Below, one piece after another: positions 1,872-21,165 of a stretch of 21,720 bases of DNA. The first letter of the stretch is position 1, and every line of letters begins with the position of its first letter. The stretch spans positions 1-21,720 of the IMG/VR virus record IMGVR_UViG_3300050014_000371; one strand, 5' to 3'. A program made the position numbers and the translations under genes. The DNA is from a virus. Under the pieces are notes generated by a model that made no database searches, had not been told where the DNA came from, and was given only the letters and a program-made list of their open reading frames with translations.

Positions 1872-2050
1872 AGAAATTGATCGTATGGCTCCTCTGCTTC
1901 TCGTTGATATTTTTCTTGGCAAAAACGCTATGGGCGGAGAACTGCAACACGGTGCAGGGAGCAGATGCTCAAGAAAGGATGGATAATATCCGTGATTGCC
2001 GGGAAGCGAACGCTTTAGAGAGGATTGCGGATTTTAATGAACCACGTTGA
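1868..2050 (+). CDS. Small exported protein with signal peptide, 60 aa
   Basis: This starts with GTG 1868, overlapping the previous stop as GTGA, with GAGGAGG immediately upstream. Residues 1-23 form a classical signal peptide: MKKL, a hydrophobic core (IVWLLCFSLIFFLAK), then a likely cleavage after LWA before ENC. The mature part is about 37 residues, hydrophilic, with two cysteines (C26 and C43) that could form a disulphide in the periplasm. The cysteines do not sit in a proper lipobox, so a lipoprotein is not supported. The pairing with a one-span membrane peptide resembles a spanin pair in size only. Function unknown. Confidence 0.62.
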   Translation: MKKLIVWLLCFSLIFFLAKTLWAENCNTVQGADAQERMDNIRDCREANALERIADFNEPR

Positions 2051-3470
2051 TCTGTTCTCCGGGATAGGAGGCTTCGCTCTCGCCGCCAGGAATACTTGGG
2101 GCGAGGAATACAACAATGTTTGTTTCTGCGAAATTAACAAATACGCGCAAGCGGTACTGCGTAAAAACTTTGGAAAGGACGTGGTGATCTGTGAGGACAT
2201 TAGAACGCTCAAGGCCGAACAATTCGGCGTTGTTACCAACGCCGACCGTTGCGGACGTGTTCACTGGAAATCTAAAATCAAGTCAGCAAAAGGATCACAC
2301 GAAGCACAGCGTGAACCTATCGCAAGCATTGAATCACCCGGCGTTCATGCTTCCGACACCAGAAACAGCGTGGGACGCGCCAAACAAAGGGAGCAACAAA
2401 AAGAACGGCCCGAAGTGCATGACGGAGGTAATGGATTACGCATCGACTTGCTCACAGGAGGGTTCCCCTGTCAGCCTTTTAGTCAGGCAGGACAAAGACG
2501 AGGCACGGAAGATGACCGCTTTCTCTGGCCGGAGATGCTTAGAGTTATTTCGGAATTCCGGCCCACTTGGATCATTGGCGAGAATGTTGCTGGACTCCTT
2601 AGCATGGCAGAGTTCGATGGTGAGTCTGAAGTGGCAAGTGAAACCGATTTATTCGGAAATCGAATCGACACACACACGAAACGAGGACGAGGAATCCTCT
2701 TCCGAATTATTGGAGAACTTGAGCAAATCGGCTACTCCGTCCAGACATTTGTTATTCCAGCTTGTGCCGTCAACGCTCCGCACCGAAGGGACAGAGTGTG
2801 GATTGTCGCTCATACGAACGCCGGACGCGAACATGGAGAGAGGACAACAGGAACGGACGAAAAATGTGAACGACCAGCTGGCAGACGTTTTGCCCCCGAA
2901 CAATGGAACGAAAACTGGCTTGAAGTTGCAACCCGCTTTTGTCGAGTGGATGATGGGTTACCCGAAAGACTTTACTTCCTTAACGGACTAGGCTATACTC
3001 CGTCAAAAGGAGATGACTATGAAGAAAGCGACGATACGGAAACAGAGCCAAAGATTTGTGAGTCTGTCTGGAAAGAGATGCGAAAAGTGTGGAGCGAGTG
3101 GCTATCTAAACAGGCACCATGTCAAGATGCAGAGGAAGGCGATAATGATTCTCTGCGTCCCGTGCCATGTAAGGGAACACCAAAAGAATGGGACGCGCCG
3201 AGTGAAGAGGCCGAAGAGTTGCGCGGTATGTGGCAAAGATTTTATGCCGCGCCATTCCAAGAAGCACAAGACCTGTTCCCCGAACTGCTTGAGCGAATTA
3301 GGGAGATTGAACGCAAGAAAAAGGTGGGATGCTCGCTGAATTTGTCCAAAGCAGGACACCGGGTCGAGCGATTTAAGGCTTTAGGAAACGCGATCGTCCC
3401 GCAAGTCGCGGAGCAATTCATGAGAGCGATTAAATCAACGGAAGAACAACAAAAAAGGAGGAGTAAATGA
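2037..3470 (+). CDS. DNA cytosine-5 methyltransferase (Dcm family), 477 aa from ATG
   Basis: It transfers a methyl group from S-adenosylmethionine to C5 of cytosine in DNA, presumably to protect phage DNA from restriction. Numbering from the upstream in-frame TTG at 2025, motif I is DLFSGIGG (9-16), motif IV is GGFPCQPFS with catalytic C149, motif VI is ENVAGL (186-191), motif VIII is APHRRDRVWIVA (251-262) and motif X is RFKALGNAIVPQVAE (449-463), so all key motifs are intact. ATG 2037 is preferred because GAGAGGA lies 12 bases upstream. Two insertions lengthen it: about 70 residues between motifs III and IV, and about 130 between DDGLPERL (309-316) and motif X. Both coincide with credible genes in the +1 frame (2191-2991 and 3019-3339). 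The recognition sequence is not readable. Confidence 0.9.
   Translation: MNHVDLFSGIGGFALAARNTWGEEYNNVCFCEINKYAQAVLRKNFGKDVVICEDIRTLKAEQFGVVTNADRCGRVHWKSKIKSAKGSHEAQREPIASIESPGVHASDTRNSVGRAKQREQQKERPEVHDGGNGLRIDLLTGGFPCQPFSQAGQRRGTEDDRFLWPEMLRVISEFRPTWIIGENVAGLLSMAEFDGESEVASETDLFGNRIDTHTKRGRGILFRIIGELEQIGYSVQTFVIPACAVNAPHRRDRVWIVAHTNAGREHGERTTGTDEKCERPAGRRFAPEQWNENWLEVATRFCRVDDGLPERLYFLNGLGYTPSKGDDYEESDDTETEPKICESVWKEMRKVWSEWLSKQAPCQDAEEGDNDSLRPVPCKGTPKEWDAPSEEAEELRGMWQRFYAAPFQEAQDLFPELLERIREIERKKKVGCSLNLSKAGHRVERFKALGNAIVPQVAEQFMRAIKSTEEQQKRRSK
2191..2991 (+). CDS. Overlapping +1-frame gene inside the methyltransferase, FVEWMMGYP-type phage protein, 266 aa
   Basis: This 266-codon frame lies entirely within the methyltransferase gene. 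It starts with GTG 2191 after GGAAAGGA (2172-2179) and ends at TAG 2989-2991. It looks like a known phage family from memory: two proline motifs (LLPTPTVAD near 14-22, MLPTPETAW near 53-61), SGRRCLELFRNSGPLG (112-127), LLFQLVPSTLRTEGTECG (187-204), RTPDAN (209-214) and a closing FVEWMMGYP (250-258). Each has a counterpart in the Dcm frame: RTPDAN lies over AHTNAG, and FVEWMMGYP over FCRVDDGLP. The family's function is not known to me. In relatives I recall, the LPTP motifs follow LVPS..RTEG; here they precede it. It could still be a long accidental open frame, but the motif matches argue against that. Confidence 0.55.
   Translation: MRTLERSRPNNSALLPTPTVADVFTGNLKSSQQKDHTKHSVNLSQALNHPAFMLPTPETAWDAPNKGSNKKNGPKCMTEVMDYASTCSQEGSPVSLLVRQDKDEARKMTAFSGRRCLELFRNSGPLGSLARMLLDSLAWQSSMVSLKWQVKPIYSEIESTHTRNEDEESSSELLENLSKSATPSRHLLFQLVPSTLRTEGTECGLSLIRTPDANMERGQQERTKNVNDQLADVLPPNNGTKTGLKLQPAFVEWMMGYPKDFTSLTD
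3019..3339 (+). CDS. HNH endonuclease-like zinc protein nested in the methyltransferase gene, 106 aa
   Basis: ATG 3019 has a perfect AAGGAG (3007-3012) six bases upstream. The start is chosen over ATG 3013, which touches the Shine-Dalgarno. Residues 20-54 show an HNH layout: CEKC (21-24), NRHHV (31-35), then LCVPCHVREH (45-54). A second zinc site follows: CAVCGKDF (68-75) and CSPNC (86-90), ending in GRLNARKRW. HNH proteins nick or cut DNA, and free-standing phage ones are often homing endonucleases. It lies in the same frame as the 2191-2991 ORF, 27 bases after it, and wholly inside the Dcm reading frame, in the insert before Dcm motif X. Dcm remains open across it. The protein-like zinc pattern plus its own ribosome binding site make this a real gene in my view. 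Confidence 0.78.
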   Translation: MKKATIRKQSQRFVSLSGKRCEKCGASGYLNRHHVKMQRKAIMILCVPCHVREHQKNGTRRVKRPKSCAVCGKDFMPRHSKKHKTCSPNCLSELGRLNARKRWDAR

Positions 3471-12064: not shown

Positions 12065-13090
12065 ATGACCATTCAACGATCAAACACCATCGCGCAAATC
12101 CACGCGAAAGGGTTGGCTCAAGTCGATCTTCTTTACATCGTTTCAAAAATGATCAACAGCTTCAATTTCGTTCTTTCTAAGCTCGATGCCGAAGGACTCG
12201 GAGACACGAATTATTGGAGCACGCTTTACATCAAGAACACGATTGGAGAAACCTACCTCGCTACTATCGATCCAAACGGGCTTTTGTGGGGAGATATGTA
12301 CGATCTCCTTCGCGCTCTTCTCGTAAACTTCAATGCGCTTTGTGAGAAGCTCGCGGCAGATGGGACGGTTACAGGAACCACGGTCTATACCGCAAGAGAG
12401 ATATCCACGACGGACAGCAAAGGAAGAGCCGTCGGATATCCCGGGTCCAGAATCCAGAAGCTCGGGGTCCATCAGGGATCGCTCGTAGAGTTCCTTGATC
12501 TCTGGATCGATATGTTCAACGCGGTCTTGTATGAACTGGATAACGATTCAACCGTAACCGGGACAGATTATCGCTCCGCGTTTGCTGTCACGGATATCGT
12601 TATGAAAGTCTCGTCCTCAAGCTCTTCCAGTTCCTCAAGCTCGAGCAGTAACTCAAGTTCGAGTTCTTCGTCCTCGAGCAGCAGCAGTTCCTCATCTTCG
12701 AGTTCTTCAAGCTCAAGTTCTTCGAGCTCGTCCTCGAGTATGAGTTCTTCCAGTTCGAGCAGCAAATCAAGTTCATCGAGCAGTTCGTCTTCCAGCAGCA
12801 GCTCAAGCTCCAGTAGTTCGAGCAGCTCCTCGAAATCGTCCAGCTCGTCCAGTAGCAGCAGTTCCAGCTCGTCCAGCTCAAGCTCCAGTAGTTCTTCGAG
12901 TTCTTTGAGTTCGAGCTCGAGTAGCAGTTCAAGTTCCAGTAGGTCAAGCAGCTCATCCTCTTCATCGAGTAGCTCTTTAAGCTCCAGCAGTTCGTCTTCG
13001 AGCTCATCGAGTTCCTCATTAAGCTCAAGCTCTAGCAGCTCCTCGAGTAGCAGTTCGTCCTCGTCGAGTTCGTCTAGCGCCAGCGCATAA
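12065..13090 (+). CDS. Putative virion protein with helical repeats and a poly-serine tail, 341 aa
   Basis: ATG 12065 follows GGGAGAGGA. Residues 1-182 contain three versions of one unit, a helix followed by a turn: LLYIVSKMINSFNFVLSKLDAE (22-43), DLLRALLVNFNALCEKLAADG (80-100) with TVTGTTVY, and FLDLWIDMFNAVLYELDNDS (143-162) with TVTGTDY. Units of the form KLDADxGVTDTxY are familiar in phage structural proteins, though I cannot name a function. Residues 183-338 are nearly all serine, broken only by single Asn, Met, Lys, Leu or Arg residues, and the protein ends in ASA. The tail is presumably flexible and surface-exposed, and could be a glycosylation target given the glycosyltransferase genes downstream (inference). 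No homopolymeric DNA is used to encode it. Confidence 0.78.
   Translation: MTIQRSNTIAQIHAKGLAQVDLLYIVSKMINSFNFVLSKLDAEGLGDTNYWSTLYIKNTIGETYLATIDPNGLLWGDMYDLLRALLVNFNALCEKLAADGTVTGTTVYTAREISTTDSKGRAVGYPGSRIQKLGVHQGSLVEFLDLWIDMFNAVLYELDNDSTVTGTDYRSAFAVTDIVMKVSSSSSSSSSSSSSNSSSSSSSSSSSSSSSSSSSSSSSSSSSSSMSSSSSSSKSSSSSSSSSSSSSSSSSSSSSSKSSSSSSSSSSSSSSSSSSSSSSSLSSSSSSSSSSSRSSSSSSSSSSSLSSSSSSSSSSSSSLSSSSSSSSSSSSSSSSSSSASA
12611..13078 (+). repeat. Poly-serine coding tract 1
   Basis: About 156 codons, all but a handful serine, use a shuffled mixture of AGC, AGT, TCA, TCC, TCG and TCT. The DNA is therefore repetitive in texture (AGCTC, TCGAG and CCAGT recur) but contains no long exact tandem repeat. 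Short identical blocks such as TCAAGCTCCAGTAGTTC recur here and in the tract at 20680-21003. Confidence 0.88.
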
Positions 13091-13448: not shown

Positions 13449-13481
13449 ATAACCTCACACACATAAAAAGGGGTGACTGAA

Positions 13482-15125
13482 ATGGAACACGATCTGTTTA
13501 AGGCGAAGAACTTGGAAGAAGGAATCCATAACACGGTCGGGGACTGCAACGGAATCCCGGCGCGTGAACGATGGGAGAAAGAAACCCCGGTATTTGCGAA
13601 ACAAATTCTCTCTCATCTTCAAACGAATCCCGGGACTGTTATCTTGGATTATGGGTGCGGTGTCGGCCGCCTCTCGAAAGAGATCCTTTTCCAAGATCAA
13701 AACGTAACCGTGATCGGGCTTGACGCATCAGAGCATCAGCTCAAGATTGCGACGGAGTACGTCAACGACAGCCGGTTCATTCCCATTCTTCCCCATCAAC
13801 TCAAGCAGAAGGTGGACCTTGTATACTGCGTCTATTGTCTACAGCACGTTCCTGCGGTTGAACTCCGAGACGTTCTTTATCGAATTTACACGTTTCTCAA
13901 ACCCGGAGGAATTTTCATTTACTGCTCATCCGATTACCGAATGGCAATTCGCTATGACGGAGGAGGATTCTTTGACGATCGATTCCTGGGCGTGAATATC
14001 CGGGAAGAAATCTCCCGTCTTTTCACCGCACAAGGCGATCTTTTCGATCGCAGCACCACATTAGAGCCCGTCGTGGAGAAGATGGTATGGGGTGAATTAC
14101 CCCATACCGCGAAGGTTTACCTTAAAAAGAACGTCGGCGGTCATCTTTTTAACGCCAGGATTGATCAGGTTGAACGATCTCAAGATCCGGCGCTCACTAT
14201 CATCCCCCCCAAACGGAATGATCGAAGACTCGTCCTTCGTAATCGATTAAGCCCGGGAGATATCCTTGTCATGACAACAGCTATCCGAGCTCTCCACAAA
14301 GCGCATGGCGATAAATTCATGATCGACGTGGACACTCCATGCCCTCAGATTTTTGAGAACAATCCCTATCTTACGAAGTTCGATCACGATGGCGCGGACG
14401 TTCAGATGATCGATATGCAGTACCCCGAGATCCACAAGTCAGGGGCGAGCGGCCGTCATTTCTCGGACGGACACCGGAAATATCTTGAGGAGATACTTGA
14501 GATCAAGATCCCGAGGGTCGGACTTCTCCCGGATATTTTTCTCAATCAAGATGAAAAGCTCTGGCCTTCCCCGGTCCTAAAGAAAACTGGCTTTGAAGGA
14601 AAGTATTGGGCGATCAACGCTGGATCAAAATCGGATTACCCGTTGAAACAATATCATCGGTGGCAGGAGGTTGTTGATCGGTGGGCGATCCAGTACCCCA
14701 ATATTCGCATGGTTCAAATCGGACAGCTTGATCATAACCATAAAGCTCTTGATGGAGTTATCGATATGAGAGGGAAGACTGATATCCGGGAATTGTTCCG
14801 GACGATCTACCACGCCGAGGGTGTTCTGTCTTGCGTGAGTTTTCCAATGCACATCGCCGCGGCCCTTGAGAAACCTTGCGTTGTCGTAGCCGGAGGCCGT
14901 GAGGGAACAAGATGGGAGCTTTACCCTTCTCATCGGTTCCTTTACACGAACGGCATAACGGATTGCGCTCTCTATGACGGATGCTGGAAGTCAAAGACGG
15001 AAGAGTGTAAGAATCTTGTGGAAACGGTTCCGCTTTGCATGGAGCTCATCCGCCCCGAAGATATTGTCCGGGCGATGGAGCTTTATTATCTCGGAGGCGT
15101 TTTGAAGGAGGTGGCCCATGTTTAA
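13482..15125 (+). CDS. Fusion of a SAM methyltransferase and a GT9-like glycosyltransferase, 547 aa
   Basis: ATG 13482 is preferred over GTG 13473 because AAAAGGGG is correctly spaced for it. Residues 50-155 are a class I methyltransferase: ILDYGCGVGRLSKE (54-67, SAM-binding loop), VIGLDAS (77-83), LVYCVYCLQHVP (113-124) and FLKPGGIFIYCS (138-149). Residues about 248-540 resemble GT-B glycosyltransferases of the GT9 heptosyltransferase type: VLRNRLSPGDILVMTTAIRA (251-270), a WAINAGSKSDYPLKQYHRW segment, then SCVSFPMHIAAALEKPCVVV and GGREGTRWELYP where GT9 proteins bind the sugar nucleotide. The last 60 residues hold several cysteines (CALYDGCWKSKTEEC). The acceptor is unknown: phage protein glycan or host polysaccharide. 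It is the first gene of an overlapping operon. Confidence 0.75.
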   Translation: MEHDLFKAKNLEEGIHNTVGDCNGIPARERWEKETPVFAKQILSHLQTNPGTVILDYGCGVGRLSKEILFQDQNVTVIGLDASEHQLKIATEYVNDSRFIPILPHQLKQKVDLVYCVYCLQHVPAVELRDVLYRIYTFLKPGGIFIYCSSDYRMAIRYDGGGFFDDRFLGVNIREEISRLFTAQGDLFDRSTTLEPVVEKMVWGELPHTAKVYLKKNVGGHLFNARIDQVERSQDPALTIIPPKRNDRRLVLRNRLSPGDILVMTTAIRALHKAHGDKFMIDVDTPCPQIFENNPYLTKFDHDGADVQMIDMQYPEIHKSGASGRHFSDGHRKYLEEILEIKIPRVGLLPDIFLNQDEKLWPSPVLKKTGFEGKYWAINAGSKSDYPLKQYHRWQEVVDRWAIQYPNIRMVQIGQLDHNHKALDGVIDMRGKTDIRELFRTIYHAEGVLSCVSFPMHIAAALEKPCVVVAGGREGTRWELYPSHRFLYTNGITDCALYDGCWKSKTEECKNLVETVPLCMELIRPEDIVRAMELYYLGGVLKEVAHV

Positions 15126-15783
15126 AAAAATCCAGCAAGCCGCGATCTTTAACACGCTCCGGATTTTGAAACAAGTGAACCCGGGGGACGCTTATTACGA
15201 AGCGTATCTCGGTCATCTTCAAACAAGCGGACCTGAACTCTACGATCTCTATATGCTGCTTTGGGAGATCGCCGTGGACAGGAAACCACGAAGAATCCTA
15301 GAGATCGGGACAAGGACCGGCCTCTCTCTTTGTCAGCTCATGAGCGCCTACATCGATCCGAACATCATCCAGAAGATCGTCTGCATCGATCCCTTCGAGG
15401 ATATGTTCATCTCGAAGCATCTCGTTTTGAAGAACCTTCGGTATCTGAATTTACCGACGGATAAGATCGAGTTCTTGGAAGGCTTCTCTCAAGATTTCCT
15501 TCCAAAAATGAATTACGTCGATAAGGAGCGGTTTGATTATATCCTCGTTGACGGGGACCATGAAAAGAAAGCGGCCCGGAATGATCTTGAGTTAGCCCTT
15601 GGGCTTCTCGCCCACGGCGGAGTAATCGTCTTTGATGATATCTCTGACGCTCCCGGAGAATGTGCTTTGATCGACGTGTGGATGGATTTCAAAACCTGTC
15701 ATGCGAACGAATTTGAGTATGTTCAAGAGAATATGTCCGGAAAGGGTGTCGCATGGGCGATAAGAAAAGCATCCACACCATAG
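15118..15783 (+). CDS. Class I SAM-dependent methyltransferase, 221 aa
   Basis: ATG 15118 overlaps the previous stop by eight bases and has AAGGAGG upstream (about 15106-15112). The Rossmann features are clear: RILEIGTRTGLSLCQL (59-74), KIVCIDPFED (86-95), FDYILVDGDHEKKAARNDLE (139-158) and LLAHGGVIVFDDI (163-175). The VDGDH...D..L...GG..v.DD pattern is typical of the Methyltransf_24 / cephalosporin-hydroxylase-like group, often found in glycan and natural-product clusters, where it methylates sugar hydroxyls. The substrate is not readable here. It is one of four or five methyltransferase domains in this operon. Confidence 0.78.
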   Translation: MFKKIQQAAIFNTLRILKQVNPGDAYYEAYLGHLQTSGPELYDLYMLLWEIAVDRKPRRILEIGTRTGLSLCQLMSAYIDPNIIQKIVCIDPFEDMFISKHLVLKNLRYLNLPTDKIEFLEGFSQDFLPKMNYVDKERFDYILVDGDHEKKAARNDLELALGLLAHGGVIVFDDISDAPGECALIDVWMDFKTCHANEFEYVQENMSGKGVAWAIRKASTP

Positions 15784-16328
15784 GGGACAGCCACGCTTGG
15801 CATTGTTGGCTCAAGATCCGAGAGACTGTCCCTTTCTCTCCCGGTCCGATGACGCTGCATCATTTCGGGATTTATAAGCCGGTCATGACAAAGAATATCC
15901 CGCTCGATCATATTATCGTCTTTGCTTACGGCGAGATTGATTGCCGCTGCCACGTCTTTAAAAATCCGCCTTGGGATGAGTGTATTGATAAACTCGTCGA
16001 GAATTACAAACTCGCTTTAGATTTAAACTCGGAAGGAAGAGATCCTAAAAATATCTGGATCAATTACGTTGTGCCTCCTCCGCATCGGGACGGACTCCCT
16101 CAAGCGGAACATGAAAACCCGATGTTCCCATTTCTTGGAAGCGATCAGGAACGTCTCTCTTTCGTCAAAAGAATGAACGAGGGATTACGAAAACTTCCCT
16201 ATACGTTCATTGATATCTACGACAAATACGCGGATAAAGACGGATTTCTTAACCCGGGGATGAGCGACGATCAATGCCACGTCTCAGATCCAAAACCTTT
16301 ACAGGAGTGGGTCGATGCTCACGCATGA
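15753..16328 (+). CDS. SGNH-hydrolase-like protein, 191 aa
   Basis: The start at 15753 lies 31 bases inside the previous gene. Motifs follow the SGNH esterase/acyltransferase plan: IGDSHAW (10-16, putative nucleophile S13), AYGEIDCRCH (58-67, where GxN is usual), and SDDQCHVSD (171-179, putative Asp-His pair D173 and H176). Proteins with GDSH and GEIDCR motifs occur in polysaccharide clusters, from memory. In this setting it may add or remove acyl groups on sugars. The GxN asparagine is replaced, so activity is uncertain. There is no signal peptide, so it would act in the cytoplasm. Confidence 0.6.
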   Translation: MGDKKSIHTIGDSHAWHCWLKIRETVPFSPGPMTLHHFGIYKPVMTKNIPLDHIIVFAYGEIDCRCHVFKNPPWDECIDKLVENYKLALDLNSEGRDPKNIWINYVVPPPHRDGLPQAEHENPMFPFLGSDQERLSFVKRMNEGLRKLPYTFIDIYDKYADKDGFLNPGMSDDQCHVSDPKPLQEWVDAHA

Positions 16329-16965
16329 ACTAGATATCGAGTATTTCAAGGAATATCCGGCCCCGATCATGCAAGCGGTTCAGGAACTTCATCATACGAA
16401 TATCAATTCCACGATCTCCTTTTTCGGGCCGATGATGTATTTCCTTTTGAGGGATATCGGCGCGGAACAAGTGCTCGAGATCGGTCACGCGGAAGGATAC
16501 ACCGCGCATTATCTCGCGAACGCCGTGAAAGATAACGCGGTCCGTTTCGGGATGAAAGGGAATAAATACTACGGGATCGATATCGTACAGACTGAGAAGA
16601 TCCGATCGGCTTTAGAGGCCAAAGGGCTCCCGGTCGATGTTCGGAATGTAGACTCCATGACTCTAAGTCCCGAGACGTTCCCGGGCCTTCTCTTCGACGT
16701 AATCTTTCAAGACGGATGCCATGACACGGAGCACGTCCTTTATGAGCTCAAGACGATGTATCCGCAGCTCAAAGGGGAGGGGAAGGGTTACTGGATCATG
16801 CACGACGTATTCGGTCCGGCGGAGGAAGGATTTCATGCGGTGAAGAAATTGATCGATCAAGGGGTTTATAACTTCGAGTTTGTCCGGATCTTCTCTTGCT
16901 ACGGACTCGGAATCTTCCGGAAGATGGAAGGTTGGGACGAATCAAAACGACATTGGAGGGATTGA
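16315..16965 (+). CDS. Class I SAM-dependent methyltransferase, 216 aa
   Basis: ATG 16315 follows AGGAG (16303-16307) and overlaps the upstream gene by 14 bases. Key segments are QVLEIGHAEGYTAHYLANAV (52-71, SAM loop), YYGIDIVQTEK (85-95), FDVIFQDGCHDTEHVLYELK (127-146) and GYWIMHDVFG (158-167). The QDGCHDTEHV...D layout is like the VDGDH-type methyltransferases beside it but divergent, so it probably acts on a different position of the same product. A downstream TGATG couples it to the next gene. Confidence 0.73.
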   Translation: MLTHELDIEYFKEYPAPIMQAVQELHHTNINSTISFFGPMMYFLLRDIGAEQVLEIGHAEGYTAHYLANAVKDNAVRFGMKGNKYYGIDIVQTEKIRSALEAKGLPVDVRNVDSMTLSPETFPGLLFDVIFQDGCHDTEHVLYELKTMYPQLKGEGKGYWIMHDVFGPAEEGFHAVKKLIDQGVYNFEFVRIFSCYGLGIFRKMEGWDESKRHWRD

Positions 16966-18074
16966 TGAATTGCGACGTTTGCAGGAGGGATCAGGGACCG
17001 GAAGGAACGCAACCGCTCGAGTTTTTGGGGAAGACATATAACCTCTGCCCGTTCGATCAGTTGGAGGTTCAACGGTTCCTCGATATGCGGATCAGTCAAG
17101 ACAATCTGAATATCTGTTGGGGCGGCGGGAAAGTCTGTCCTCAGAGTTGGGAATCGATCAGGGGTTATTTAAGAAAATACAAGATCAATGAAGTCCTTGA
17201 GCTCGGCGCCGGATTGTCAAGCGAGCTATTCGTTCTTGAAGGCATGGATCTTAAAAGCTTCGATGTTCTTGATTTCCATATCCGGATGCTTGCCAGTTGC
17301 CGATCGATGGCGAATAAAGCGAAGTTCCACGCCTACGAATACGGACAGATCCCTCCTGTGATGGAGCTTTATCCGGGAAAGAAATGGAATTTTGTGTTTG
17401 TTGACGGACCCCAGGAACGCTCCCGCGAAGTCGATCTCGCTATGAAGCTTTCGACGCATCTGATCTATCTTCATGATCCGAACATGGGCGAGCAGGGATT
17501 TTTCCCGAACGCGGAGTGGGAAATGATGCCGGGAGACAACAAGCTTTTTAAGAAAGTAAGGCCGGCGAATCATCACGGACAGGTGTTGACGCTTCTCAAA
17601 GATCATTTTGGGGATAAAAAGATATCCGGGATCGAGATCGGAACGAGATACGGATGCCTCACGAAAGCGATCCTCGGGGAATGTCAGAACGTGAAAAAGC
17701 TTTATACCGTCGATCCCTGGCTTCATCAGGAAGGGAATTGCTTTGAAGCGGCGCAGCCCCAAGAGGAGCAGGAAGTCATCAAAGCACACTCTTATAAAGC
17801 CCTTGAGAGTTTTGGGGACCGCGTAAAAATCATGCCCTGCTTGAGCGATCAAGCATTTAAAGAGATCGACGAGCAAGTGGATTTTTGCTGGATCGACGGG
17901 GATCACACCGTAACAACCGCGAAGCGGGATATCATGAACGGGTTGAATATCGTGAGGCCCGGAGGCATCCTCGGCGGACACGATTACGCAACCATCAAAC
18001 AAGCGATCGATGAAACCCTGGCGGGAGTGGACGTGTTCCAGGGACACGATCTTACATGGTGGCTTTATGTCTAA
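16965..18074 (+). CDS. Tandem double methyltransferase-like protein, 369 aa
   Basis: ATG 16965 overlaps the previous stop (TGATG) with GGAGGG upstream, and is preferred to an in-frame ATG at 16896 inside the preceding gene. The protein has a short cysteine patch (CDVC at 3-6, C28), then two Rossmann domains. The first: EVLELGAGLSSELFV (76-90), SFDVLDF (98-104) and NFVFVDGPQERSREVDLAMK (142-161). The second: GIEIGTRYGCLTKAIL (222-237), LYTVDPW (246-252), CWIDGDHTVTTAKRDI (308-323) and RPGGILGGHDY (331-341). Both SAM loops look intact. It could perform two successive methylations or arise from domain duplication. The second domain resembles the 15118-15783 protein. Confidence 0.72.
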   Translation: MNCDVCRRDQGPEGTQPLEFLGKTYNLCPFDQLEVQRFLDMRISQDNLNICWGGGKVCPQSWESIRGYLRKYKINEVLELGAGLSSELFVLEGMDLKSFDVLDFHIRMLASCRSMANKAKFHAYEYGQIPPVMELYPGKKWNFVFVDGPQERSREVDLAMKLSTHLIYLHDPNMGEQGFFPNAEWEMMPGDNKLFKKVRPANHHGQVLTLLKDHFGDKKISGIEIGTRYGCLTKAILGECQNVKKLYTVDPWLHQEGNCFEAAQPQEEQEVIKAHSYKALESFGDRVKIMPCLSDQAFKEIDEQVDFCWIDGDHTVTTAKRDIMNGLNIVRPGGILGGHDYATIKQAIDETLAGVDVFQGHDLTWWLYV

Positions 18075-19065
18075 ATACGCTTTTATCGTGTCGGCGTGTT
18101 CAAAATATATTCCCGAATTGACTGCGCTCTTAAATTCCCTGGAGCTGATGGGAAACGTCCACGACGTTCATATCAACGGATTCAACCTTCCTCCTGAGTT
18201 CGTCGGTCAGTTCGGGAAATTATCCTACAATGTTTGGCTTCACGCGATCTCGGAAGAACAGGCCCGGGAATACGGCGGGGAGTCCGAGATCCTATGCCGG
18301 AAACGGTATTACTACGCCTCCGAATGGGGCGCGAATTATGAAGCGGTTTGCATCCTCGATGCGGACATGATCGTTGTCAGGAATATGGATAATTTCTTCA
18401 AGATCGCGGAGGCCGGGATCATCCTTGGAGTGACGCTCGAGCAAAAAACGACCTACGGGACGGATGAGGACGGGCATGATCATCAGAGAGTTCTCGGTGA
18501 GCATATCGTTAAGAAAAGAACTTGGAACGATAAAGACATTTGTTGTACGCCGATGTTCATCAATCCGAATACTTATGCGGATCAACTAGAGTACGCTTGG
18601 CAGATCTTTACCCTCGGCTATCCGGACAATAATTTCAAGGCCCCGGATCAGCAAGCTTTTAACATGATTCTCGTTGCGGATGATTTGGCGAAGAACGTCG
18701 TTCTTCTCCCGAATATGTGTTGGGTGGGATCGAATGAGAAGCTCCTGAAACCATACACAAGGGTCACGGTCCAACAGGACGGGCTTTTATGGACCGAAAG
18801 CGGAGAGCCGATCTTTATTTTTCATGGACGGTATTACACGAAGAAATGGAGGCAGCAGCAGATCCTTAACCGGCATGGATGCGCGGCTGGCTATCTCAAA
18901 GCCACGGAGTGCTGCGACGCGATCGCAGAAGGCGCGATGAATTGTCTCTATGAGTTTTTCAAGAAATGTCTCTCAGGTCCGATCCAGATTGACACGATGA
19001 AAGAGTATACGACCGACGGACTTCCGGACAAGACCTACGCCGAACTAGGGAGGCCCATCGTATGA
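18067..19065 (+). CDS. GT-A-type glycosyltransferase with DxD motif, 332 aa
   Basis: ATG 18067 (in-frame with an upstream ATG at 18010 that lies inside the previous gene) overlaps the preceding stop by eight bases. The N-terminus KYAFIVSACSKYIPELTALL (3-22) and AVCILDADMIVVRNMDNFFK (93-112) with D98-A-D100 fit a GT8-like nucleotide-sugar transferase; the DxD binds the metal and sugar nucleotide. Later segments NFKAPDQQAFNMIL and PIFIFHGRYYTKKW (a conserved H for the metal) agree. It should transfer a hexose in the cytoplasm. The acceptor is unknown. Confidence 0.72.
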   Translation: MSKYAFIVSACSKYIPELTALLNSLELMGNVHDVHINGFNLPPEFVGQFGKLSYNVWLHAISEEQAREYGGESEILCRKRYYYASEWGANYEAVCILDADMIVVRNMDNFFKIAEAGIILGVTLEQKTTYGTDEDGHDHQRVLGEHIVKKRTWNDKDICCTPMFINPNTYADQLEYAWQIFTLGYPDNNFKAPDQQAFNMILVADDLAKNVVLLPNMCWVGSNEKLLKPYTRVTVQQDGLLWTESGEPIFIFHGRYYTKKWRQQQILNRHGCAAGYLKATECCDAIAEGAMNCLYEFFKKCLSGPIQIDTMKEYTTDGLPDKTYAELGRPIV

Positions 19066-19874
19066 GTTTCTTGACCGAGGCCAAAAACGGCATGAAATTA
19101 AAGGAGCATCTTGATACAGGTAAGTTTAATAGGGTATTAATACCCTTTTGGCATGGTGTAGGAGACGTTGTAATGGTTCTCCCGATCATTGTTAAGCTTC
19201 GGGAATTATACCCTCAAATCGAGTTTAAATTGGGGTTATGCAAAGGGCTCGATCAGGAGACTTTCGTACCGGATGCGGTGCTTCTTGAAGGGGACTGGCG
19301 CGAGAAAGCTCTTACGCTCGGGTTTGATCTTGTGTTCCCCGTGAATTTTCCTCTCGAAAGACCCGAGGATCTCACGAAAACGAAAGCGGAGATCTGTTGC
19401 GAGGAAGAAATCGGGATTCCTCCGGTGTGTGGTCATTTACCGCTCAAGGCCAAGAAACTCGTCGGGGTTTGTTTTCAATGCACCTCGGTCCCCTGGGTGG
19501 CGAACGCGGAGCCCGAGATCGCGGAGAAGATCTGGAACGATATCAAGGAGGCCGGCTATGTTCCAATCGAAACTCAGTTTATTCATGTATTCGCTAACCC
19601 TGATAACAAGCTGTTTCCTTGCGTGGACGCTCATTTCCGAGGTTGCCCCGCGAAGATTCAAACGCTTATGTCGGTGCTTGGTTCTTGCGTCGCTTTTGTC
19701 GGGACTGTCGGGGGTAATTTTCACCTTGCTTTATCAGTTCTTGGCCCTGGACGGGTAATGCTTCTCGAAAAAGATTTGAAGAAAGAGCATTTCACGAAAG
19801 AGAAGATCGCGACGGCGAATTTGAAGGATTATCAAGGGGAAGTTAAAAAGTGGCTTGAGGGGTTAAATGCCTGA
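19062..19874 (+). CDS. GT9-like glycosyltransferase, 270 aa
   Basis: ATG 19062 overlaps the preceding stop as ATGA. HGVGDVVMVLPIIVKLRELY (31-50) is the typical GT9/heptosyltransferase start (GxGDxxxxxPxxxxLR), and FVGTVGGNFHLALSVLG (212-228) fits the sugar-nucleotide site where S/T-GxxHLA is usual. The length (270) is short for GT9 (about 320-350), and the C-terminal domain appears reduced. GT9 enzymes build LPS cores in hosts; here the gene lies between another glycosyltransferase and a fibre gene. A 16-base perfect palindrome lies within codons 24-29. Confidence 0.67.
   Translation: MSFLTEAKNGMKLKEHLDTGKFNRVLIPFWHGVGDVVMVLPIIVKLRELYPQIEFKLGLCKGLDQETFVPDAVLLEGDWREKALTLGFDLVFPVNFPLERPEDLTKTKAEICCEEEIGIPPVCGHLPLKAKKLVGVCFQCTSVPWVANAEPEIAEKIWNDIKEAGYVPIETQFIHVFANPDNKLFPCVDAHFRGCPAKIQTLMSVLGSCVAFVGTVGGNFHLALSVLGPGRVMLLEKDLKKEHFTKEKIATANLKDYQGEVKKWLEGLNA
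19131..19146. repeat. 16-bp perfect palindrome
   Basis: AGGGTATTAATACCCT is its own reverse complement. It sits inside the GT9-like gene in a locally AT-rich stretch. It could be an operator or a chance result of coding for N-R-V-L-I-P. Confidence 0.5.
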
Positions 19875-21165
19875 GGCAACCGGCGGGACAATTACTCACG
19901 CGAACGGAAAAACGATCCACACTTTTAAACTTGCGGATAGTGGAACGAATTTTGTTGTTCCTGCGGGCGGTTTAACGGTTGATGTTTTAATTGTTGGTGG
20001 AGGCGGAGGTGGAGGTGGATTGAGTAATAATCCAGGCGGTGCTGGTGGTGCTGGTGGTTTTAGGTATCTTACTGGAAATGTTCTATCATCTGGAAATTAT
20101 CCCGTAGTTGTCGGTGATGGTGGAACAGGTTGGGTTGCGGCATCGACCACAAAACAGGCGAGTGGAAATACAAGCTCTGCCTTGGGATTTTCTTCCGCTG
20201 GAGGCGGTGCTGGAGCTGATAACGATAATAAAAATGGAGTTGCAGGAGGAAGTGGGGGAAGCGCAGTAGGAAATAATACTAATGGAGCTGGAAATACTCC
20301 GTTAACTTCTCCGCCCCAAGGAACTGATGGAGGCCACGCCGCAGACCTTTATTCTTCTGGTGGTGGAGGAGGAGCTAGTCAAGCGGGAGGAAATGGAACT
20401 GGAAATGGCGGGGTTGGAGGTAAAGGCGGGGATGGAACTTCATGCTCTATTTCTGGTTCTCCTGTTACTTATGCAGGGGGAGGCGGAGGAGGACACTATA
20501 ATGGGACTGCTGGAGCGGGTGGCGCTGGAGGCGGAGGAGCTGGATCGTTGTATCCAGCAAGCGCAACAAATGGAACAAATGATATTGGCGGCGGAGGAGG
20601 CGGAACGGGTGGAAACGGTGCTTCCGCAAACGGTGGACACGGCGGCAGTGGTATCGTAATTATTTCTTACGATACGCCGTCGAGCTCCTCAAGCTCCAGT
20701 AGTTCCAGCAGCTCGTCCAGTAAATCGTCGTCATCGTCTAGTTCATCGAGCAGCTCATTTTCCTCAAGCTCAAGTTCATCCTCTTCGAGTTCTTCATCAT
20801 CTTCATCGAGCAGTAGCTCATCGAGTTTGTCCAGTTCTTCGTCGTCGAGCTCAAGCTCAAGCAGCAGTTCATCATCGTCTTCGAGTTCGAGCTTATCATC
20901 ATCCAGTAGCAGCTCTTCGAGTTCGTCCAGTTCTTCAAGTTCCTCCTCGAGTTCTTTTAGCTCTTCCAGTTCATCGTCTTATTCGTCGAGCAGTTCCTCA
21001 TCCCATGATTGCAGGTGGCACGATCGAAAAGAATCTTGCGTAGATCAGGAAGAAGTGAGAGATCCCGTAACACCCGGCCCTTGCGTTCCTTGGGGGAGAA
21101 GACAAGAAACGTGCGTTGATAAAAAACCAGTAAAAGACCCGGACCATGTTCCGGATTTCGCGTGA
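19867..21165 (+). CDS. Glycine-rich adhesin with poly-serine linker and cysteine-repeat tail, 432 aa
   Basis: ATG 19867 overlaps the previous stop by eight bases. Residues 1-48 (GGTITHANGKTIHTFKLADS, then FVVPAGGLTVDVLIVGG) are the usual opening of the glycine-rich domain seen in phage fibres and bacterial surface proteins. Residues 49-265 are mostly GGGGGG runs with sparse polar residues, suited to a polyglycine-II helix bundle as in T4-like receptor-binding adhesins, and end in GIVIISYDTP. Residues 272-379 are poly-serine. Residues about 380-432 hold two related cysteine units (CRWHDRKESCVDQ and CVPWGRRQETCVDK). It is likely a receptor-binding fibre. Codons in the glycine part are AT-richer than upstream genes (many GGA, AAT, GCT), a sign of separate origin. 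Confidence 0.76.
   Translation: MPEATGGTITHANGKTIHTFKLADSGTNFVVPAGGLTVDVLIVGGGGGGGGLSNNPGGAGGAGGFRYLTGNVLSSGNYPVVVGDGGTGWVAASTTKQASGNTSSALGFSSAGGGAGADNDNKNGVAGGSGGSAVGNNTNGAGNTPLTSPPQGTDGGHAADLYSSGGGGGASQAGGNGTGNGGVGGKGGDGTSCSISGSPVTYAGGGGGGHYNGTAGAGGAGGGGAGSLYPASATNGTNDIGGGGGGTGGNGASANGGHGGSGIVIISYDTPSSSSSSSSSSSSSSKSSSSSSSSSSSFSSSSSSSSSSSSSSSSSSSSSSLSSSSSSSSSSSSSSSSSSSSSLSSSSSSSSSSSSSSSSSSSSFSSSSSSSYSSSSSSSHDCRWHDRKESCVDQEEVRDPVTPGPCVPWGRRQETCVDKKPVKDPDHVPDFA
20680..21003 (+). repeat. Poly-serine coding tract 2
   Basis: About 108 codons, nearly all serine (mixed AGY and TCN), with single Lys, Phe, Leu and Tyr interruptions, joining the glycine-rich domain to a cysteine-containing tail. Its texture is like tract 1, and short blocks are shared. 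Confidence 0.88.

Follow-up and report, generated by a model that had tools for sequence, protein, structure and literature searches.

The window, the whole 21.7 kb stretch of viral DNA analysed here, encodes phage terminase, portal and capsid genes and, in frame 0 at 2037-3470, a C5-cytosine methyltransferase of 477 aa (PF00145, E 2.4e-39; phrog_363, E 3.7e-66), hereafter alpha. Inside this gene, the +1 frame is open for 266 aa at 2191-2991. Its product, P0002 or beta, matches phrog_1008 (E 3.8e-19), a family labeled 'DNA methyltransferase', and no Pfam or NCBIfam family. The features of the locus are as follows.

2037-3470, plus strand: alpha, large domain of the C5-cytosine methyltransferase, bearing motifs I-VIII and X (PF00145, phrog_363, similarity to M.HhaI)
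2049-2075, plus strand: alpha motif I, DLFSGIGGF, SAM binding (M.HhaI alignment)
2172-2179, plus strand: Shine-Dalgarno-like GGAAAGGA, 11 bases 5′ of the beta GTG at 2191 (family-wide Shine-Dalgarno enrichment)
2191-2991, plus strand: beta (P0002), +1 frame, with motif IX and LLPTP (probable recognition) segments and a proposed GTG start (phrog_1008, codon shuffles, nested loci)
2230-2244, plus strand: beta LLPTP segment
2466-2474, plus strand: alpha motif IV, catalytic PCQ (M.HhaI alignment)
2781-2798, plus strand: alpha motif VIII, HRRDRV, overlapping the conserved beta block near RTEGTE
2926-2964, plus strand: beta motif IX, LQPAFVEWMMGYP (hhalign against single-chain methyltransferases; alignment with LTPxECxRLQGFPD)
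2943-2963, plus strand: alpha RVDDGLP, read in frame 0 from the DNA that encodes beta motif IX
2970-3345, plus strand: alpha insertion of about 120 codons, seen at no other locus compared (spacing from RVDDG to motif X)
3005-3012, plus strand: Shine-Dalgarno AAAAGGAG, 6 bases 5′ of ATG 3019
3013-3339, plus strand: HNH/zinc-finger endonuclease-like ORF P0003, +1 frame, likely start ATG 3019 (phrog_1271, phrog_171)
3378-3404, plus strand: alpha motif X, ALGNAIVPQ

The motifs by which a C5-cytosine methyltransferase is recognized (I, IV with PCQ, VIII and X) are all present in alpha. Motif IX is missing from alpha between VIII and X and is found in the +1 frame instead. An earlier sequence-only reading had described the two open frames and the paired motifs read from the same DNA, and both observations held, the frames exactly as claimed. 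Its statement that the methyltransferase frame keeps its catalytic motifs held for I, IV, VIII and X, motif IX not being in alpha. The +1 product does belong to a recognizable phage family (phrog_1008), as claimed; the claim that this family is a separate one is refined here, since alpha and beta are most likely two parts of one enzyme. That reading had overlooked the third ORF at 3013-3339, which is also in the +1 frame and also nested in the methyltransferase frame.

This third ORF, P0003, is likely an HNH-like endonuclease, as judged by eye and from weak profile matches (phrog_1271, E 2.8e-5; phrog_171, E 4.8e-5; Pfam HNH at 13.9 bits, below the cut-off). The distance from the RVDDG-like motif to the GN of motif X is 145 residues in the window and 14 to 38 in 90 other methyltransferase ORFs, and the extra residues coincide with the HNH-like ORF. 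The alpha frame stays open throughout this ORF, which is expected in 1.1% of shuffles. A tblastn search of phages with P0003 gave no match, and the insert was not seen in any other locus compared. A different HNH element lies elsewhere in the genes of two other loci, L043 (2977-4341) and L097 (2486-3190). These two HNH endonucleases are related; the one at L043 occupies the beta frame and the one at L097 the alpha frame, and HNH elements therefore seem to invade both frames of the overlapping gene.

Two further features of the window lie outside the methyltransferase locus. Two ORFs beside the structural genes (12065-13090 and 19867-21165) have very long terminal poly-serine tracts. A run of genes at 13473-19874 resembles, by eye, SAM-dependent methyltransferases and glycosyltransferases and is perhaps a glycan-modification cassette.

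Spread and annotation of the nested frame

We compared 233 loci drawn from phage, IMG/VR and bacterial collections. In 225 of them a methyltransferase ORF encloses beta in its +1 register, and no stand-alone beta gene was found among the 233. The loci are not all independent, as some IMG/VR loci were fetched by more than one scan. These counts answer a check proposed in the sequence-only reading, namely whether +1-frame homologues overlap methyltransferase genes, and its guess that the +1 family is generally an alternative-frame product of such genes held. A tblastn search with P0002 matched 62 phage records. Furthermore, beta of the K1ind3 type was found in 220 phage records and in a dozen plasmid records, where the only annotation is cytosine methyltransferase. 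The sets of 220 and 62 records may overlap, and the alpha frame was not confirmed record by record.

Public annotation treats this gene pair in several ways. In the Paenibacillus phages Lily and Diva, the cytosine methyltransferase is annotated with an 'internal gene', which is beta, and the annotators of K1ind3 list the nested gene as a 'Mte8-like' ORF29. In Porphyromonas phage018a (L001:2450-3064), the public annotation holds the beta frame only, leaving the catalytic alpha unannotated. Likewise, only beta is annotated in Xanthomonas PhiXhv-2 (L235:1370-2176), where it is called 'cytosine-specific methyltransferase'. The 'two DNA methylases' of Kampy and Krili were rejected as candidates: they are consecutive genes that overlap partially and are not nested, and their +1 scores are low. 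As a separate observation, a single-chain methyltransferase of Streptococcus phage P0092_45 contains a nested 141-codon +1 ORF (L089:1457-1876). None of 300 synonymous shuffles gave one as long; this ORF has no similarity to beta and remains unexplained.

No paper describing this nested methyltransferase family was found in the literature searched, which left out most subscription journals. Within that limit, novelty appears to lie in the breadth across phages, in reading the LLPTP/WMMG proteins as the half of the enzyme with motif IX, and in the additional HNH nested in the gene.

Constraint on the +1 frame

Conservation of the methyltransferase by itself gives the +1 frame some resemblance to the family. 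Therefore, synonymous codons were permuted within each methyltransferase gene, and the +1 frame was rescored by the family profile (200 permutations per locus). For the window alone, a +1 frame open for this length is no more than mildly unusual: 1 of 200 shuffles reaches 267 codons. Its beta scores 212 bits with a leave-one-out family HMM, against 73 ± 12 for the shuffles (maximum 109). The real +1 frame exceeded all 200 shuffles at every one of 45 non-redundant loci, with a median z of 12. The same held at 38 of 38 loci that had been fetched solely via the methyltransferase frame, a set that shares a few contigs with the 45. Ascertainment through +1 similarity is thus rejected as the cause, because the loci found by the methyltransferase frame alone pass too.

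The 4-fold degenerate sites point the same way. Where 56 sequences encode the same amino acid at such sites, the third base is identical in 53.7% of cases within the overlap and in 30.8% outside it. Amino-acid identity is alike in the two regions (42% and 45%, respectively). Conversely, when the beta codons of the window were permuted, the alpha frame stayed open in 0 of 2000 trials. Comparison thus shows that both frames are under purifying selection at the protein level.

The simplest rival explanation is shadow similarity, in which the methyltransferase alone is translated and conservation of the +1 frame merely reflects the underlying DNA. In its favor, shuffled sequences do retain a +1 score (mean about 40 to 110 bits), and the long +1 run of the window is by itself little out of the ordinary. 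Against it, every shuffle was beaten at all 45 and 38 loci, third bases of 4-fold sites are constrained solely inside the overlap, and neither the +2 frames nor the single-chain controls give a comparable signal. On the codon shuffles and the 4-fold sites, we reject this explanation as all but excluded.

Dual coding of the methyltransferase and beta is therefore very likely, on comparative evidence. The sequence-only reading had inferred that both frames are translated; dual coding is strongly supported, and translation is still an inference. It had also named synonymous-site constraint as a check, which came out positive within the overlap and not outside, and chance overlap without conservation as a refutation, which was not borne out and is contradicted by the recoding and 4-fold tests.

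Motif IX and the split-enzyme reading

In the C5 methyltransferase fold, the large domain comprises motifs I-VIII and X, and the small domain comprises the variable region and motif IX (PMC3404938). The beta alignment terminates in a strongly conserved block, GLKLQPxFVEWMMGYPxxWT. Single-chain enzymes of actinophages and Streptomyces (L091 from Seagreen, L149, and those of Rita and Spartoi) have the same block in the frame of the methyltransferase itself, following motif VIII and preceding motif X. An hhalign comparison of beta with single-chain methyltransferases gave a match confined to this block (96.4%, E 1.2e-9), and the block aligns with the classical motif IX, LTPxECxRLQGFPD. The K1ind3 row of that alignment stood in the alpha frame through an error and carries no weight here.

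At 172 of the 225 nested loci, beta contains the motif IX pattern; in alpha it was found at none. PCQ was found in alpha at 189 and in beta at none, and motif X in alpha at 188 and in beta at 1. The motif IX pattern was found in neither frame at 53 of the 225, owing to truncated contigs or divergence. Distant phages follow the same division: N15 (gp58), K1ind3, KPN N137, RcPescado, PS-1 and Porphyromonas phage021a carry a WLMG/MMMG motif IX only in the +1 frame, and in HdK5 we read LNPAFPCWLMGYP by eye as motif IX. In the controls DMCA, SPbetaL2, SpP and P0092, motif IX lies in frame 0 (by eye where the pattern missed it). Comparison thus shows that the motifs are divided between the frames and that motif IX is in frame in single-chain relatives. 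Two loci, L084 and L086, are intermediate, with motif IX in the alpha frame and the LLPTP region in +1.

Apparent single-base indels were seen at four loci (L112, L113, L036 and L097), where they swap frames or split alpha. In L112 and L113, apparent single-base indels join the N-terminal part of alpha to the C-terminal part of beta. These could be sequencing errors or real exchange.

We consider it very likely that the locus encodes one C5-cytosine methyltransferase made as two polypeptides from overlapping frames. Frame 0 would yield alpha, the large domain, with motifs I-VIII (including SAM binding and the catalytic PCQ) and X. An internal +1 start would yield beta, which carries motif IX and, most probably, the variable DNA-recognition part; the recognition role of its LLPTP part is inferred. 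The two chains would associate into a working enzyme, as alpha and beta of the two-polypeptide enzyme M.EcoHK31I do. This enzyme would modify phage DNA, probably against host restriction. Its assembly, activity, target site and antirestriction role are all inferred.

Internal initiation of beta is likely but also inferred, with no protein-level evidence. Of 132 non-redundant loci, 40% have a Shine-Dalgarno match of at least 5 bases ahead of an in-frame start close to where beta opens; in shuffles the figure is 13%. An alternative route would be a programmed frameshift by ribosomes translating alpha, which would put the catalytic motifs and motif IX on one fused chain and leave no separate beta. 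Single-chain relatives exist, and the joined chains of L112 and L113 after an indel would be compatible with it. Programmed frameshifting is known in phages. However, conservation of beta reaches well upstream and covers the catalytic motifs, where a ribosome shifting only after motif VIII would have no use for it. Shine-Dalgarno sites are also enriched 5′ of internal beta starts. We regard frameshifting as very unlikely.

Several observations weigh against the split-enzyme reading. There is no protein-level evidence of beta. Significant sharing with single-chain enzymes is limited to motif IX (about 25 residues), and the N-terminal two thirds of beta has no recognizable homologue among them. 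AF2 predictions were poor both for full beta (pLDDT 57) and for a trimmed relative (103 sequences; pLDDT 65). Foldseek with the predicted beta found nothing significant (best E 0.7), and the beta profile (A1) found no chain in the PDB. Moreover, the predicted TRD of M.EcoHK31I sits on its large subunit (PMC3404938).

The N-terminal two thirds without a single-chain homologue, and the lack of a Pfam family or fold match, would also suit a second rival. Here, beta is translated yet is no subunit, being instead an overprinted accessory protein such as a regulator, inhibitor or anti-defence factor. This appears unlikely, given the strong profile match of beta to motif IX, the identical place of the beta block between VIII and X in single-chain genes and the absence of motif IX from alpha.

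Under the preferred split-enzyme reading, the inferred origin is a single-chain gene in which the segment from motif VIII to motif X was displaced by one frame, with motif X itself keeping the original one. Beta would later have acquired an upstream start within the catalytic region. In the window, a later arrival would have been an HNH-like mobile endonuclease, inserted in the +1 frame downstream of the RVDDGLP region and ahead of motif X without closing the alpha frame.

A bolder reading, towards which we lean with considerable reservation, is that, in a large class of phage C5 methyltransferases, one and the same stretch of nucleotides encodes the catalytic part in one frame and the DNA-recognition part in another. 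Such a class would have arisen by frame displacement, with partition points varying by lineage, as in L084 and L086. Many annotated 'orphan methyltransferases' would then be half enzymes, inactive unless the hidden frame is expressed.

If the split-enzyme reading is true, many phages have just half of the enzyme represented in databases, and an annotated gene recoded for another host loses its second subunit. This would offer a testable explanation of seemingly inactive phage methyltransferases. As a natural example of dual coding on one strand, the locus would be unusually clear: the two products would be parts of an ordinary enzyme, and the arrangement is conserved in phages of great diversity. 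Besides, such an overlap is suited to measuring how one DNA sequence meets the demands of two proteins.

Comparison with known systems

Beta-type proteins are already in databases, some as nested genes, under PHROG 1008, in Lily and Diva and in K1ind3. Unlike here, they are not called a motif IX half in the records or literature searched.

The HNH-like ORF recalls the 'ShiLan' domain, a hidden out-of-frame HNH within an insertion in an actinophage methylase whose frame stays open (PMC11855218). The arrangement in the window is alike in all these respects. However, the HNH sequence and the insertion site differ, and the window has a good Shine-Dalgarno where no RBS was found for the ShiLan HNH (PMC11855218). 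Furthermore, in the window the beta gene precedes the HNH in the same +1 frame.

M.AquI is likewise a C5 enzyme of two polypeptides. In contrast to our locus, its split is linear and its small subunit carries both IX and X (PMC3404938), whereas here motif X stays with alpha.

The closest parallel in the division of motifs, which is not a sequence comparison, is M.EcoHK31I. Its large polypeptide carries I-VIII and X, and only motif IX is on the small polypeptide (PMC3404938), as in the window. The small polypeptide is reported to be nested in another frame (Lee, Kam and Shaw 1995). M.EcoHK31I differs in being a characterized enzyme of known specificity (YGGCCR), whereas the phage gene has a long LLPTP-containing beta and an extra nested HNH. 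By analogy, the type of enzyme proposed here has a biochemical precedent in M.EcoHK31I (PMC3404938).
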